Of a stretch of 64,000 nt of DNA, positions 11,729-47,930 are shown piece after piece (the first letter of the stretch is position 1; every line of letters begins with the position of its first letter). A program made the translations under genes and the position numbers. Location of the stretch: NCBI GenBank assembly GCA_012845835.1, contig JABAKD010000017.1, positions 5,375,651 through 5,439,650 of the forward strand, given 5' to 3'. The notes beneath the pieces are model-generated. The model did no database searches. It was not told where the DNA came from and saw only the letters and a list, made by a program, of their open reading frames with translations. Origin of the DNA: Undaria pinnatifida. Lineage: Eukaryota; Sar; Phaeophyceae; Laminariales; Alariaceae.

Positions 11729-12124
11729 TTAAGTCTCGAAGTAGAAAATACCTACGGCACTGTCAGCAGTCATCATGGTAGAGACACTCTGGATATGATT
11801 TGTTGAGGGCATGCGTCCGATTTCGACAACGTGAAAGCACCCGTGAAGCAAAGATAGCAGATACGCATATCCCGCCTTCCCGAGTAAAAACAGAGACGAA
11901 GCGCTACGCCAACCTACTGTGCGAGAAAAGCAACCCCCACATCTATCTTGGGCAACGCCGCCGTAACGAGAGATAGCTCTGCTCTTCTTCGTTTTCCTCT
12001 TCGCCCGTGACCACGCAGACCAATCAATGCGACAGCCTTCAGGCAGTAAACAAAGCTCTTCTTCTAAAACCTCGCCGGCTGAGATGGCCCCATGTCGACG
12101 CTTGATGCAAACCGACTTTGCATC
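11729..12124 (-). CDS. candidate exon 15 (terminal) of the ferric reductase/NOX-like gene
   Basis: Minus-strand frame starting after an acceptor ending gtcgacag at 12,125-12,126 and running 131 codons to a stop at 11,729. It begins DAKSVCIKRRHG and contains GAISAGEVLEEELCLLPEG. It enters in phase 0, which fits the phase-0 end of exon 14. In FNR-type reductases the last segment carries a similar helix and then a Cys-Gly-Pro motif; I do not see a clean CGP here, so the 3' half may be intronic or may read on past an unrecognised intron. This exon is less certain than exons 12-14. Confidence 0.4.
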   Translation of the reverse strand, partial: DAKSVCIKRRHGAISAGEVLEEELCLLPEGCRIDWSAWSRAKRKTKKSRAISRYGGVAQDRCGGCFSRTVGWRSASSLFLLGKAGYAYLLSLLHGCFHVVEIGRMPSTNHIQSVSTMMTADSAVGIFYFET

Positions 12125-12624
12125 CTGTCGACTTCGAACCTCCATTGCCACGGGGACAACAGTGCAGCCTCTTCATTGATGCCAAGTCCTCTTTCGTTTC
12201 GCCTCGAGGCGAAGCAGGGTCTCAATACTCTGTTCGGTATTTTTGTTTGATATACGCCAACTTTTCCATGACGGCGCATTTAACAACAGCAGGAGTGTTT
12301 CGCTTATCCTTGCCTTCTTTGTTGTATATGACGCTTTTCCTCCGCAAAATGATGACCTTCACATTCTCATGTATGTCCGTATTAAACTCTTGGCACTTTT
12401 TTAAAGTTCAATGGACGTCAAATCGGACAGCTACACCTTATCTTGTCGAAGTGCTGCCCTGCCCTACCCGAAGCAATGCGGAGCCCTTGTATATATTTTT
12501 CAATGGCCGAAAGAGTGAAACGTAATAATATCAATAGTCACCCCACCGTACAGATAGCCGTTCTTTCTTTTCTTTCTTCCTATTATTGCGTAGTGATTTG
12601 TTTTCCGTCCGATTTGTACATTTT

Positions 12625-12820
12625 TGGGTTTTCAAGGGTTCCCTGGGTGGCATGTAGTGTTGTCGGTTTCAGATGCGAGTCTTGAAACGTATGAACCAGT
12701 ACGGGCCTGGCACGTACTACGTAGTAGGCTGACTTGCGATGCCATCTGTTTATATATTTAGTGGATGCATGGATTGCTTCAGGTATGACATATACATGCG
12801 TATACCACTTTCGATTAAGG
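12625..12820. repeat. diverged copy of the repeat at 1-545
   Basis: Includes ggtggcatgtagtgttgtcgg and gatgcatggattgcttcagg, matching the two segments at the start of the window. It lies in intron 14 of the minus-strand gene. The remaining intron sequence from 12,820 to 13,360 shows nothing that I can identify. Confidence 0.4.
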
Positions 12821-13365
12821 CTGACTTCCGATGTATTTTGTTTATAAAGAATGGGTTATCAATGGCCTGTCGTGGATTATTACGGAAAAGTTGTTATACT
12901 CCTATATCGTGTGTACTCACAAGTCACGGCGCTATAATACTATTTTTCATTCGACGTTTGTTTCGTGCGGCCGTTGGGTAGGACTGAAAGCTCCTTCTGG
13001 ACAGATTGTGACGGAAACACGCCAGTTTCGTCAGACAATTTTTACGCGCCTTTATTGATGATGATTCATTGAGTTTAATGTTGCACATGTTTTTGACGGG
13101 AATTTGTCCAATGATGAAGTGCGTCCGGCTTTAATCGTGCATATTAATGGCACATAGCTAACCGATATTATTTCCATCATTATTCGACCCATTCGGCAAA
13201 GAATCGAACTTTTCACAACCCCGGGATAAGCAGCCTTTAGCATCGTTAACTGCCTTTTGCTGATACTATTTCGTTGCCTGCGGGCATTTGCTTCGACGGC
13301 GGCTCTTATTCGGCCGCCGGTGAATTCCCCGTGTATATATATACATATAAATGAATAGAAAGACC

Positions 13366-13418
13366 GAGGGAGGAAGGGAGGGAGGGAGGGAGGGAGGGAG
13401 GGAGAGAGGGAGGGGGGG
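13366..13418. repeat. (GGGA)n simple repeat
   Basis: About ten GGGA units ending in a run of G. Consecutive G-runs with single-base spacers have strong G-quadruplex potential on the plus strand; on the transcript of the minus-strand gene it is CCCT-rich. Located in intron 14. Confidence 0.85.
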
Positions 13419-13729
13419 TGTACTCGATGTTCATGCATTGGCGTAGTGGTATGACCATAGCTATTTTCCCATCGCATCCCTACAATGCGGGGCCGGAGCA
13501 TGTCGGGTTTTCACCAACCAGGCAGTCACTGCCTGCAGCAAGCGCGAGCGCAATGAGGTGAGAGAAGGGAGGCGTATTGGTTTGTTGCTTGCCGTAGTCA
13601 TTTGACCATTGGGGGGAGGGAGGGGATGGTTACGAATACCGGTACGCTTAAACAGTTTGTTGGCTAATACCATATTATTGAAGGAGTAGTTGGTTGGCGG
13701 TATCTCAAAGTCGTACGTATAGCCCTTAC

Positions 13730-45586: not shown

Positions 45587-46272
45587 AAAACACCGTCGGA
45601 AGAGCATTCATGTTTTGACAAACATTCTATACCAATGCCACGGGGTATTCATCCGCGTGCGCACTTCAAATTCGGGCAAGTAAATAGAGCTCCTGGAGCG
45701 AGGAGTCTCAGAGCACAAAACGTTGCACCCCTAGCAGGTGTCAAGGTGTTTCTGTATTGCATGCAATATACGTAATAATTAGCGCCCCAAGGTTGGACGT
45801 GTCTCTATCAAGAGTGGCAGCAATGCTCCGTCCCGAAAGCGATGGCATGCGTGGTCAATGGATCAAGTTATTACGACAAACAACGAATTGCCCGCCCCCG
45901 CACTACCCCCCCGCCTCCAACTATAGTTGGCTCCCTCTACACCCCGTCGTAACTTGTTCTAGCCCCTCGCCAAAAATGCGAAGGTATCGCGTGCCACGTC
46001 TTATAGGGGTGCGACGGCCTATGGGTACGACCGCGGCCATGCATGGTATTGGGCATACCTCCCCCCCCATTCCCGAACATTTAGCCCCCCCCTCTCCTTC
46101 TTTGACGTACCCCGCCCCCCCCCCTCCATACCCATACCCCCTTTCCTCCCCCTTCCGGTACCCACTCCTAATCGCCTCCCTCCCCACCCCCCACCCGTCA
46201 CATCGCACCCCCTCGCCCCCCTTCTCGTAATCGTAACTCCCCTTACCACCCAAGTGCTTGTGCGACACGTAC

Positions 46273-46431
46273 CTTGTCCATGGGACAAAACCCGTCGTTT
46301 CCGCAGCCATCGATGCAAACGGTCTGTCGTGGCCACACGTTCCAGTAGAATCGATCGAGGATCATCCAAAAAGACGTAAACAGCCAGAAACCCAGCATGG
46401 TGTAGCGGAACACCCCTGTGTAGTTTTTAGA
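46273..46431 (-). CDS. exon 4 of the ferric reductase/NOX-like gene: membrane helix and Cys-rich loop
   Basis: A 159 bp exon (53 codons), acceptor ...ttctgcag, donor |gtacgtg, phase 0 at both ends. It reads YTGVFRYTMLGFW, then LFTSFWMILDRFYWNVW (membrane helix), and ends VCIDGCGNDGFCPMDK. Three cysteines in the last 12 residues suggest a small disulfide-bonded loop on the non-cytosolic side. Upstream the minus strand is G-rich (C-rich on plus, 46,060-46,240). Confidence 0.75.
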
Positions 46432-47000
46432 CTGCAGAAGCAGAAAAAGTCGTAGTAGAGGTAGTGGCGGTAGTTATAGTGGTAGCAGTAGTGGTTGTTG
46501 TTGTTGTTGTTGTAGCAGCAGTAGCAGTAGCAGTAGCAGTAGCAACATACGTCGGCGGGGAGGGCGGGGGCAGCAGTAAGCCGGGATGGGACGGGGAGTG
46601 AGAAAAAAATACAACGGTTGGTTGAGGCGTCGTATTGATTGAGCACCGGCGAACTCGACGTGGTCTTCGCAGCATAGATTACCGATGTATGGTAATGATA
46701 AAATTGACCAATGAAAAAAATGCGTGCACGAAATACCTCTCTCTCTTTTGACATACTCTTTGCAGCACAGATTAATATGCCAGGTAACTTGTAGCAAACC
46801 CAAACATGTTTGAGGCCCATTTCCAAACACCAAACGCACGGGAAAACGATCTTATCAACCGTCTAGCAGCAGACCAAGGCTGCGGTAGGGCGGGGCACAT
46901 CCGTTTTAACTTCCTGATTTGCGCCACTGGCACTCGCGTGCCAGTGCATCTCACTGGAAAAATAAGTTTTACTCGTTTTATTAGGCGCAGCGTAGCTAAC

Positions 47001-47169
47001 CGTTCCATGCGGATTCATGTATAGCAAGACAAAAACCGCATTTGAACTGAAGGTTGCAAAGGACCACACCGGGGTCACTCGCGCGAGTGATCCCGAGTCA
47101 CTGCAAAATACGGTCTTGAACGCGATCCCCTCACCGTAGTCTTGGTCAGTATATGGAGCAGCAACAGAT
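47001..47169 (-). CDS. exon 3 of the ferric reductase/NOX-like gene
   Basis: A 169 bp exon, acceptor ...cacgcgtag, donor |gttagc, entering with one base (phase 2 before it) and leaving in phase 0. It reads SVAAPYTDQDYGEGIAFKTV, then a helix-like VWSFATFSSNAVFVLLYMN. Both boundaries fit their neighbours. The protein sequence itself has no signature motif, so the call rests on splicing logic and hydrophobicity. Confidence 0.6.
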
Positions 47170-47795
47170 CTACGCGTGTCGGCGAGCAATTGCATGGGCT
47201 ACATAATCAGCTGCACACATTTCCTCAGCTTGAACTATGCCGGAGGGTATCTCATATCTGCGCATGCTCTCAAAGCCGAGGCGGCGATGTCTCATTCGGG
47301 CATACTTTTAAAGGTTGATGTAAAGCGACATCTACTTCGTAAACCTGCACACCTTTTCAGAGTCGATATCTAGCTCCTCGTCTAGCTCCTCGTCTGCACG
47401 TGATATGGAAGGTTGAGCTATATTGGAGCGTACCTCGTCTACTGTTTCAAAACCCGAGCTGTAGGCGATAGCTCATCTTCAAGGAGCTACAGAGGACAGT
47501 CCGTCTGAACATATGTTTTGAGGACGCGTGCTGTACCTGGTACACGACACATGAGCTGATGAGCTGTATCCATATGTCATAGTGAAAAAGACAAACACAT
47601 ACCCGGTTGGAACCTGGTACGTATGCCAAAATTGCGTCCACACAAACAGCAATACAATTTTTAGGTTACGAGATGGGAGCTGTGTCCTGGTGTGATTAAT
47701 AGTCTGTTTTAATAGCAACGACAAAACACAGCTGTCCCTCACAAAAACGAAAAAAAGTTCGCCCACATCACAACACCAAATGTCAACATGCCTAC

Positions 47796-47930
47796 AGCAG
47801 CATGGCAACCATCGGGGCAGTTGGAATAACGGTGATTCTTCGCACCACTAGCCAGACTGCGAGCAAGCTAGGTTGGAACAGCCACCCGATCCCCCCCCTT
47901 CCCAGGATCCAGGTGGATACATTGTTCAAT
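47796..47930 (-). CDS. exon 2 (first exon found) of the ferric reductase/NOX-like gene
   Basis: A 135 bp exon, acceptor ...ttccacctaag, donor |gtaggc, phase 2 at both ends. It reads LNNVSTWILGRGGIGWLFQP, then a membrane segment LLAVWLVVRRITVIP. W-x-L-G-x-x-x-G is a common start of the first helix in ferric-reductase domains. The frame is also open upstream to an ATG at 48,175, so the initiation codon could be there instead of in a separate exon 1; the upstream residues are very basic and not convincing. The true 5' end is not established. Confidence 0.6.

Follow-up and report, generated by a model that had tools for sequence, protein, structure and literature searches.

The window analyzed here is a stretch of 64,000 nucleotides from the brown alga Undaria pinnatifida (contig JABAKD010000017.1, positions 5,375,651 to 5,439,650 of the forward strand; contig C23 in our numbering of this 511-Mb genome). 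Its minus strand carries 12 exons with AG/GT borders that run from 46431 to 13730, a span of ∼33 kb that includes one intron of 15 kb. All 11 junctions are in phase, and the joined open frame comprises 2325 bp (775 codons) without a stop. The exons belong to a real gene, with 12 exons or more, that most likely encodes a very divergent membrane protein of the ferric reductase/NADPH oxidase (NOX) type; it is one member of a small family, and the copy in the window appears to lack the last two exons. Five copies of the family are found in the genome, four within ∼325 kb on one contig and one elsewhere; those other than the window copy are designated P2, P3, and P4 (same contig, with P3 running in the opposite direction) and P5 (contig C28). 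A first-pass annotation of the same DNA had proposed 14 phased GT-AG exons on the minus strand without coordinates for single exons, so that no exon-by-exon matching can be made; the multi-exon gene with phase kept at its junctions stands, with 12 exons supported. The exons and the point at which similarity to P2 ends are as follows, with phases given as in/out and protein features as predicted.

46273..46431, minus strand: E46, first transmembrane helix (SKNYTGVFRYTMLGFWLFTSFWMILDRFYWNVWPRQ...); phase 0/0; borders CTGCAG / GTACGT
44970..45061, minus strand: E45, DPGCLKDGPWSVKAFDAIARISSRFIISTT, helix 2; phase 0/2; counterparts in P3, P4, and P5
43010..43241, minus strand: E43, remainder of helix 2, then helix 3 containing H-x13-H (WLHALGGWSIGVWTLLH); phase 1/0
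27684..27851, minus strand: E27, helix 4, then RNFSFCMVLHT as the first half of helix 5; phase 0/0
24073..24197, minus strand: E24, second half of helix 5, RRKTHPHVWILN, and helix 6 ending in YVIDKVW; phase 0/2; also in P5
22178..22303, minus strand: E22, first strand of the FAD domain (RVDPLADATRVMLDDEYMLLLWRH...LCDIFFLKK); phase 1/2
20487..20604, minus strand: E20, FAD motif GELAHPFTTCSSHDV; phase 1/0
19516..19790, minus strand: E19, where the insertion in the FAD domain starts (ERPMIEVPLQTDTAWPGHRFALNSA...); phase 0/2; provisional donor
18510..18664, minus strand: E18, insertion, continued (WEEEETMIGADTGAYPGKISCVIGSV); phase 1/1
15195..15681, minus strand: E15, last part of the insertion, rich in Thr and Gly, followed by KKMGLKRLETREFQEYR and strand WNKMAIIKIHK; phase 2/2; provisional acceptor
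14340..14520, minus strand: E14, strand and CTYGPYRSDYG; phase 1/0
13730..13936, minus strand: E13, NAD(P)H-binding glycine loop IIATGAGAALAL and the strands after it; phase 0/0; last exon found in the window
13330..13379, minus strand: 3′ breakpoint; the alignment with P2 ends at 13379, with weak similarity by eye to ∼13330

The minus strand from ∼50 kb to 9 kb was scanned in three frames for stretches of at least 32 codons, and candidate borders were inspected. An exon finder was trained on six exons of the window copy and one reductase exon from another contig; its top six candidates are its six training exons, and it is thus not independent for those. It also proposed 45061–44970 (E45), by which the phase between the first and third exons of the model is mended. 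Minus-strand open stretches of at least 20 codons in the window were compared with fetched paralogue regions, P5 counterparts being those among the matches listed, and the many intron matches that are dispersed repeats were set aside by position. Colinear matches supplied E22, E20 with its HPFT motif, E19, E18, and the coding end of E15. Three borders, namely the donor of E19 and the acceptors of E18 and E15, offered several GT or AG choices, and the one that keeps phase was picked. Because border choice was guided by phase in this way, a figure of the type 3^-11 would overstate the evidence of the junctions, and conservation in the paralogues is the real test. The acceptor of E18 lies further downstream than in P3, with an in-frame stop seen by eye just upstream in both the window copy and P2, and E22 has the acceptor AAAG, present also in P2, and the donor GTTATG.

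Upstream of E46 one or more further exons are expected, making the N-terminus of the window copy incomplete in the 775-codon model. The 5′ end that the first-pass annotation placed at 47930 is not retained, as the open stretch 47930–47846 scores low and has no counterpart upstream in P3 and P4 (the comparison does not extend to P5). The length of ∼980 residues proposed there gives way to 775 supported residues plus the N-terminus beyond E46, and in place of an exon of 576 bp the longest supported exon has 487 bp. A candidate exon at 25587–25508, between E27 and E24, was rejected for its wrong phase, with no counterpart seen in P3 or P4. No small extra exon for helix 5 is seen there either, P5 seeming to be joined at the same place and phase; a very short exon is possible.

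Repetition of exon pieces is also seen in this part of the gene. In the intron after E24, window positions 23600–23538 hold a partial second copy of the end of E24 (...YVIDKVLCSTSGR), and in P3 two partial second copies of that end lie in the next intron (21434–21502 and 21677–21730 of the fetched region); these are old duplications of an exon piece. A second piece resembling the helix-5 exon (QSNFSLAMVVHLI) lies at position 20023 of the fetched P3 region, in the intron between E27 and E24.

A search of the genome with the first protein join gives 28 matches, which comprise the window gene, P2, P3, and P4, four matches on C28 that constitute P5, and a stray match on contig C55 (E 3.3). The copies of E46 are 69% identical in P3 and 63% in P4, and 50% on C28 among the matches listed; E43 matches at 94% (P2), 78% (P3), and 69% (P4), and E27 is present in P2, P3, and P4, with a P5 counterpart by position. 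In P2 the frame is open through its ten matching exons. In P3 and P4 the seven exons from E46 to E20 join in frame; nine-exon joins that omit E19, E18, and E15 put E14 and E13 out of frame with stops, as expected from the omission, and the P3 and P4 frames accordingly cover seven in-frame exons each rather than the full length. The idea of a 5′ truncation in P2 was given up because its first visible exon is preceded by a run of N, which may explain why the first exons are missing there. In the fetched P5 region a very long low-complexity open frame begins at position 16093, where the relatives have the insertion exons, and is a candidate exon only.

Divergence between the window copy and P2 is of the coding type. 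Over seven core exons dS is 0.219 and dN is 0.037 (dN/dS 0.17), with 18, 12, and 53 mismatches at codon positions 1, 2, and 3 in 383 codons; dN/dS is 0.48 for the three insertion exons and 0.32 for all ten, and the weakest single exons are E20 (0.61) and E15 (0.58). Over nine exons the window copy gives 0.27 against P3 and 0.20 against P4, and P3 against P4 gives 0.15. In blastn alignments along the locus, from which any piece overlapping an earlier one was skipped, the exons of the window copy and P2 differ by 165 mismatches (10.1%) and 1 gap opening in 1641 aligned bases, whereas the introns differ by 1485 mismatches (19.2%) and 166 gap openings in 7720 bases. With P3 and P4 as outgroups, the seven core exons show 12 synonymous and 13 nonsynonymous changes on the window branch and 11 synonymous and 8 nonsynonymous on the P2 branch, 28 and 11 changes being unplaceable, which suggests that both copies were under constraint for most of the time since their split. 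The recurrence of the exons in paralogues, the contrast of exons and introns in gaps and mismatches, and dN/dS together indicate that the gene evolved as coding sequence. The first-pass view that the exons agree beyond chance is thereby borne out by exon copies with coding-type divergence, junction phase being partly selected.

Beyond E13, the copies P2, P3, and P4 have two exons, one of ∼20 codons (VFDTKAGAKDDLAIGRLNVK in P2) and a last one with the stop (SIVDEVSDDTEVYFCGGGAINVLLRKECDRRKMKFTGSAVQ in P2), in which V[YH]FCGGG is followed by the stop 23 codons later in all three. P5 has a counterpart of the last exon, and none of the shorter penultimate exon was seen there. Searching the genome with these exons gives seven matches, namely the last exon at P2, P3, P4, and C28 and the shorter one at P2, P3, and P4. 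Within the window, seven versions of the query run through tblastn at word size 2 give a best match of E 0.093, at 26412–26296, which contains stops and does not lie behind E13. Among the four best matches per query, the strongest one past E13 on the minus strand covers 13 residues at 6197–6159 (E 0.28, P5 query) and is not believed. With the P2 stretch that holds both exons as query, blastn at E 1e-5 leaves them unmatched in the window, and at E 10 it gives only short matches of the chance type. In P2 the two exons come within the next kilobase past the breakpoint, which in the window adjoins a (GAGG)n stretch at 13366–13418. The window copy thus appears to be 3′-truncated, unless the assembly is wrong there. 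A last exon that the first-pass annotation had placed at 11729..12172 on the minus strand is rejected, lying inside a dispersed repeat: a search with 13300–11700 gives 43 matches, which are the window itself, at least 40 long matches to ∼12475–11700 at 85–89% identity (40 of 2364 first-look candidates having been scored), and two short ones.

Other repeats lie in and around the introns. One dispersed repeat occurs several times (∼9297–9463, 26374–26681, 30617–30860, and 43864–44069) and also beside the P2 copy, and the E46/E45 and E19/E18 introns hold long simple repeats (TTA x120 at 45227–45587 and AACCC x79 at 18983–19376). On the plus strand, at 3652–6800, open frames resemble by eye a retroelement with reverse transcriptase and tyrosine recombinase, which we take to be of the DIRS type; Pfam gives no match to them at E 0.1. 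The Pfam scan at this threshold covered seven open frames from the window, five from elsewhere, and two in the surroundings of E19 and E15, and finds nothing in any of them.

The joined protein presents, in order, helices, H-x13-H, the RNFSF helix, IDKV, the first FAD strand, HPFT, GPYR, and the glycine loop. This is the order that the first-pass annotation had read, to which HPFT is added. The motif HPF[TS], taken from aligned DUOX1 and NOX2 sequences, is found as HPFTTCSSHDV, identical in the window copy, P2, P3, and P4. GPYR of the window copy is GPYG in P5, the glycine loop reads ATGAGAA, and the C-terminal motif, whose exon is not found in the window, is CGGG in P2, P3, and P4 and CGD in P5. 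Between HPFT and the strand before GPYR lies an insertion of 302 residues that is hydrophilic, with one weak hydropathy peak of 1.07. No EF-hands, the N-terminal feature of NOX5/RBOH oxidases, are listed in the Pfam scan of the 775 residues, a model that starts at E46.

Profile–profile comparison gives further indications of family identity. An alignment of the family (five algal rows given, four kept) was compared using hhalign with a profile of three NOX sequences, namely RBOH, DUOX1, and NOX2. The match has P 0.0077 and a probability of 5%, and it aligns helix 1 to the second His of helix 3 with both His in register. The membrane part alone gives E 0.066, a score reached in 3 of 100 column shuffles, the FAD and NAD parts together E 0.012 (1 of 100), and the NAD part E 0.0021 (0 of 100), the latter two resting on the same 21 columns around CGG, in an exon without counterpart in the window copy, and so not being independent. 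These matches are supportive of the assignment rather than proof of it, and the order of the motifs would do the rest. PF01794 places other genes of this genome in the superfamily, with four matches on contigs C36 (three within ∼150 kb) and C26, at E 8.9e-15 to 3.4e-5, among which the window family does not figure. PF08030 has two weak matches in the genome, one on C29 that looks by eye like another flavoprotein reductase and one on C26. The ferric-reductase-like gene on C26 has similar exon-like pieces repeated (...YHRGMARVFMALVLVHMVLFWVVFAQNDDFW...) between low-complexity stretches, at ∼1489–3190 of the fetched region on the minus strand. Searches of the IMG/VR and GTDB genomes with the family alignment give 35 and 60 pattern matches, among which no relative was confirmed. 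The published literature searched, a scope that most subscription papers and brown-algal gene models fall outside, showed no account of the family, and brown-algal orthologues may well be annotated elsewhere.

According to PMC3591440, the haem histidines of the superfamily are 101 and 115 in transmembrane helix (TM) 3 and 209 and 222 in TM5, with 101/209 the inner and 115/222 the outer pair. Hand alignment places His at 101, 115, and 209 in the window copy, P2, P3, and P4, and hhalign agrees for the first two. At +17 and +19 from His-209, HPH is invariant in these four copies and present in P5. In P5, aligned by hand, position 101 is Arg and position 209 is not His (LNVPFLLRGLKV), but His-115 and HPH are kept. 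This joint loss of 101 and 209, seen in one lineage, suggests that HPH would pair with 115 as outer ligand. It is possible, if rather doubtful, that the family forms a separate branch of the ferric reductase domain (FRD) superfamily whose helix-5 ligand to the outer haem is shifted by about one helical turn to the invariant HPH and in which P5, without the inner-haem pair (His-101 replaced by Arg, His-209 by Lys or Leu) but with a NOX-like dehydrogenase tail, gives one genome both two-haem and one-haem forms.

As PMC3591440 has it, the FRD superfamily (PF01794, PF08022, and PF08030) includes FRE and NOX; the window family shares with it H-x13-H, the first His of helix 5, HPFT, GPY[RG], the glycine loop, the order of domains, and, in the paralogues, the CGG end, but falls below the Pfam cut-offs, has HPH four and six residues beyond position 222, lacks Pro after the glycine loop, and carries the hydrophilic insertion of ∼300 residues in the FAD domain. 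The ferric-reductase-like genes on C36 and C26 belong to the same superfamily but, unlike the window family, exceed the Pfam cut-off. The NOX signature in that source consists of His-101, His-119, Thr-178, and Gly-179; judged by eye, the window copy has His-101, Leu at 119, and a Thr in TM4 without a following Gly. The family is accordingly not classed as NOX, and in the absence of His-119 and Gly-179 an oxidase is no more likely than a metal reductase. To the preNOX proteins of stramenopiles and red algae, as PMC3591440 describes them, it is similar in lacking His-119, in its ferric-reductase and dehydrogenase layout, and in having a dehydrogenase insertion. However, the preNOX insertion consists of four helices between the FAD and NADPH domains rather than a hydrophilic segment between HPFT and the pre-GPYR strand, and Gly-179 is not found in the window family. 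YedZ and STEAP proteins have only the surface-side haem and Arg at position 101 (same source); a likeness to them is confined to P5, with its Arg at 101, its retained His-115, and no 209 His by hand alignment, and even P5 differs in its NOX-like tail, while the other four copies have His at 101.

Several observations weigh against the reading of the locus as a gene for a protein of this type. The gene model is a prediction from DNA, and the stop upstream of E18 and the AAAG acceptor and GTTATG donor of E22 are unusual. No curated profile of Pfam or NCBIfam reaches its cut-off: PF01794 gives 12.4 bits (E 0.17, cut-off 28 bits) on the first partial join and 7.1 bits (E 7.2) on the 775-residue join, Pfam finds nothing in a 340-residue join of P3, and among four family members PF01794 matches one at E 0.56 and PF01184 one at E 0.13. 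The check with PF01794, PF08022, and PF08030 that the first-pass annotation had proposed thus yields sub-threshold scores for the first, and the other two are not among the matches of these scans. NCBIfam offers an unrelated family only (E 0.21), and phmmer and hmmsearch against Protein Data Bank (PDB) sequences find nothing; a PDB search with a reductase exon from C36 likewise finds nothing. The hhalign probability is low and, against a single plant sequence, is 0.2% (E 0.26); in that single-sequence alignment GPYR aligns with GPYG, but the CGG end is off its counterpart. Position 222, 13 residues after His-209, is Arg. The Kyte–Doolittle plot (19-residue mean) has four peaks above 1.0 in the membrane part rather than six, two expected helices falling below, and its highest peak (1.9) falls on the glycine loop.

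These points bear differently on the alternatives. That there is no gene, and that open stretches have been strung together by chance, is scarcely conceivable: the individual exons are short, and Pfam gives no match to any of five that were scanned singly, but paralogue conservation, dN/dS, gap counts, and phase argue otherwise and refute the notion for the ten exons shared with P2. That the protein is a membrane flavoprotein or another multi-helix protein outside the ferric-reductase superfamily, its motif matches being due to chance, is improbable. The profile scores and the alteration of some motifs (GPYR, and no Pro after the glycine loop) would fit this, but HPFT, GPYR/GPYG, the glycine loop, and CGG stand in the right order, the x13 spacing of the helix-3 His is exact, and the hhalign register is right both for the membrane part and for the CGG end. 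A haem and flavin electron-transfer protein of the membrane with divergent motifs, as the first-pass annotation had suggested under the label ferric reductase/NOX-like, is the best supported reading given the motifs, the haem His, the CGG exon of the paralogues, and hhalign, though the NOX half of that label is not supported.

Two further alternatives concern the state of the window copy. The truncation might be unreal, the last two exons having been lost in assembly or lying on sequence outside it, which is unlikely although far from negligible; the missing exons could be an assembly error beside a simple repeat, since the break adjoins the (GAGG)n stretch, and the N run at P2 shows that unread stretches occur in the cluster, but the window contains no N, and the ∼800 bp past the break are gap-free and have, among the matches listed, one short match (74%) besides themselves. 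About as unlikely is that the gene is active and has acquired a different 3′ end, so that it reads past E13 into the intron or into unrelated exons and yields a shortened or regulatory protein. All 12 exons are in frame with GT/AG splice sites, and nonsynonymous changes on the window branch are fewer than the ∼3.3:1 expected from site counts; the lost part, however, holds the CGG motif of P2, P3, and P4, constraint since duplication does not show present activity, and no replacement exon is seen, the earlier candidate being a repeat.

In the preferred reading, a divergent ferric reductase/NADPH oxidase-type protein from a 3′-truncated copy, the protein would consist of a haem membrane domain, to which six helices are assigned by analogy, and after it a domain that binds FAD and NAD(P)H and whose FAD part the insertion would interrupt. 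The electron path would lead from NAD(P)H to FAD and across the membrane via haem to an outside acceptor, probably ferric iron or oxygen. The last two exons, which would encode the end of the NAD(P)H domain, were probably lost by a break in the intron behind E13, and the window copy is probably a recently disabled or altered one, whereas P2, P3, and P4 look complete at the 3′ end. A family of this kind could easily be missed by automatic annotation, given its short exons, the 15-kb intron, and Pfam scores below cut-off. If the haem reading is true, the family would offer a natural comparison of two-haem and one-haem forms for electron transfer across a membrane, and the relevance of these enzymes to an alga would lie in iron uptake or reactive-oxygen signalling.

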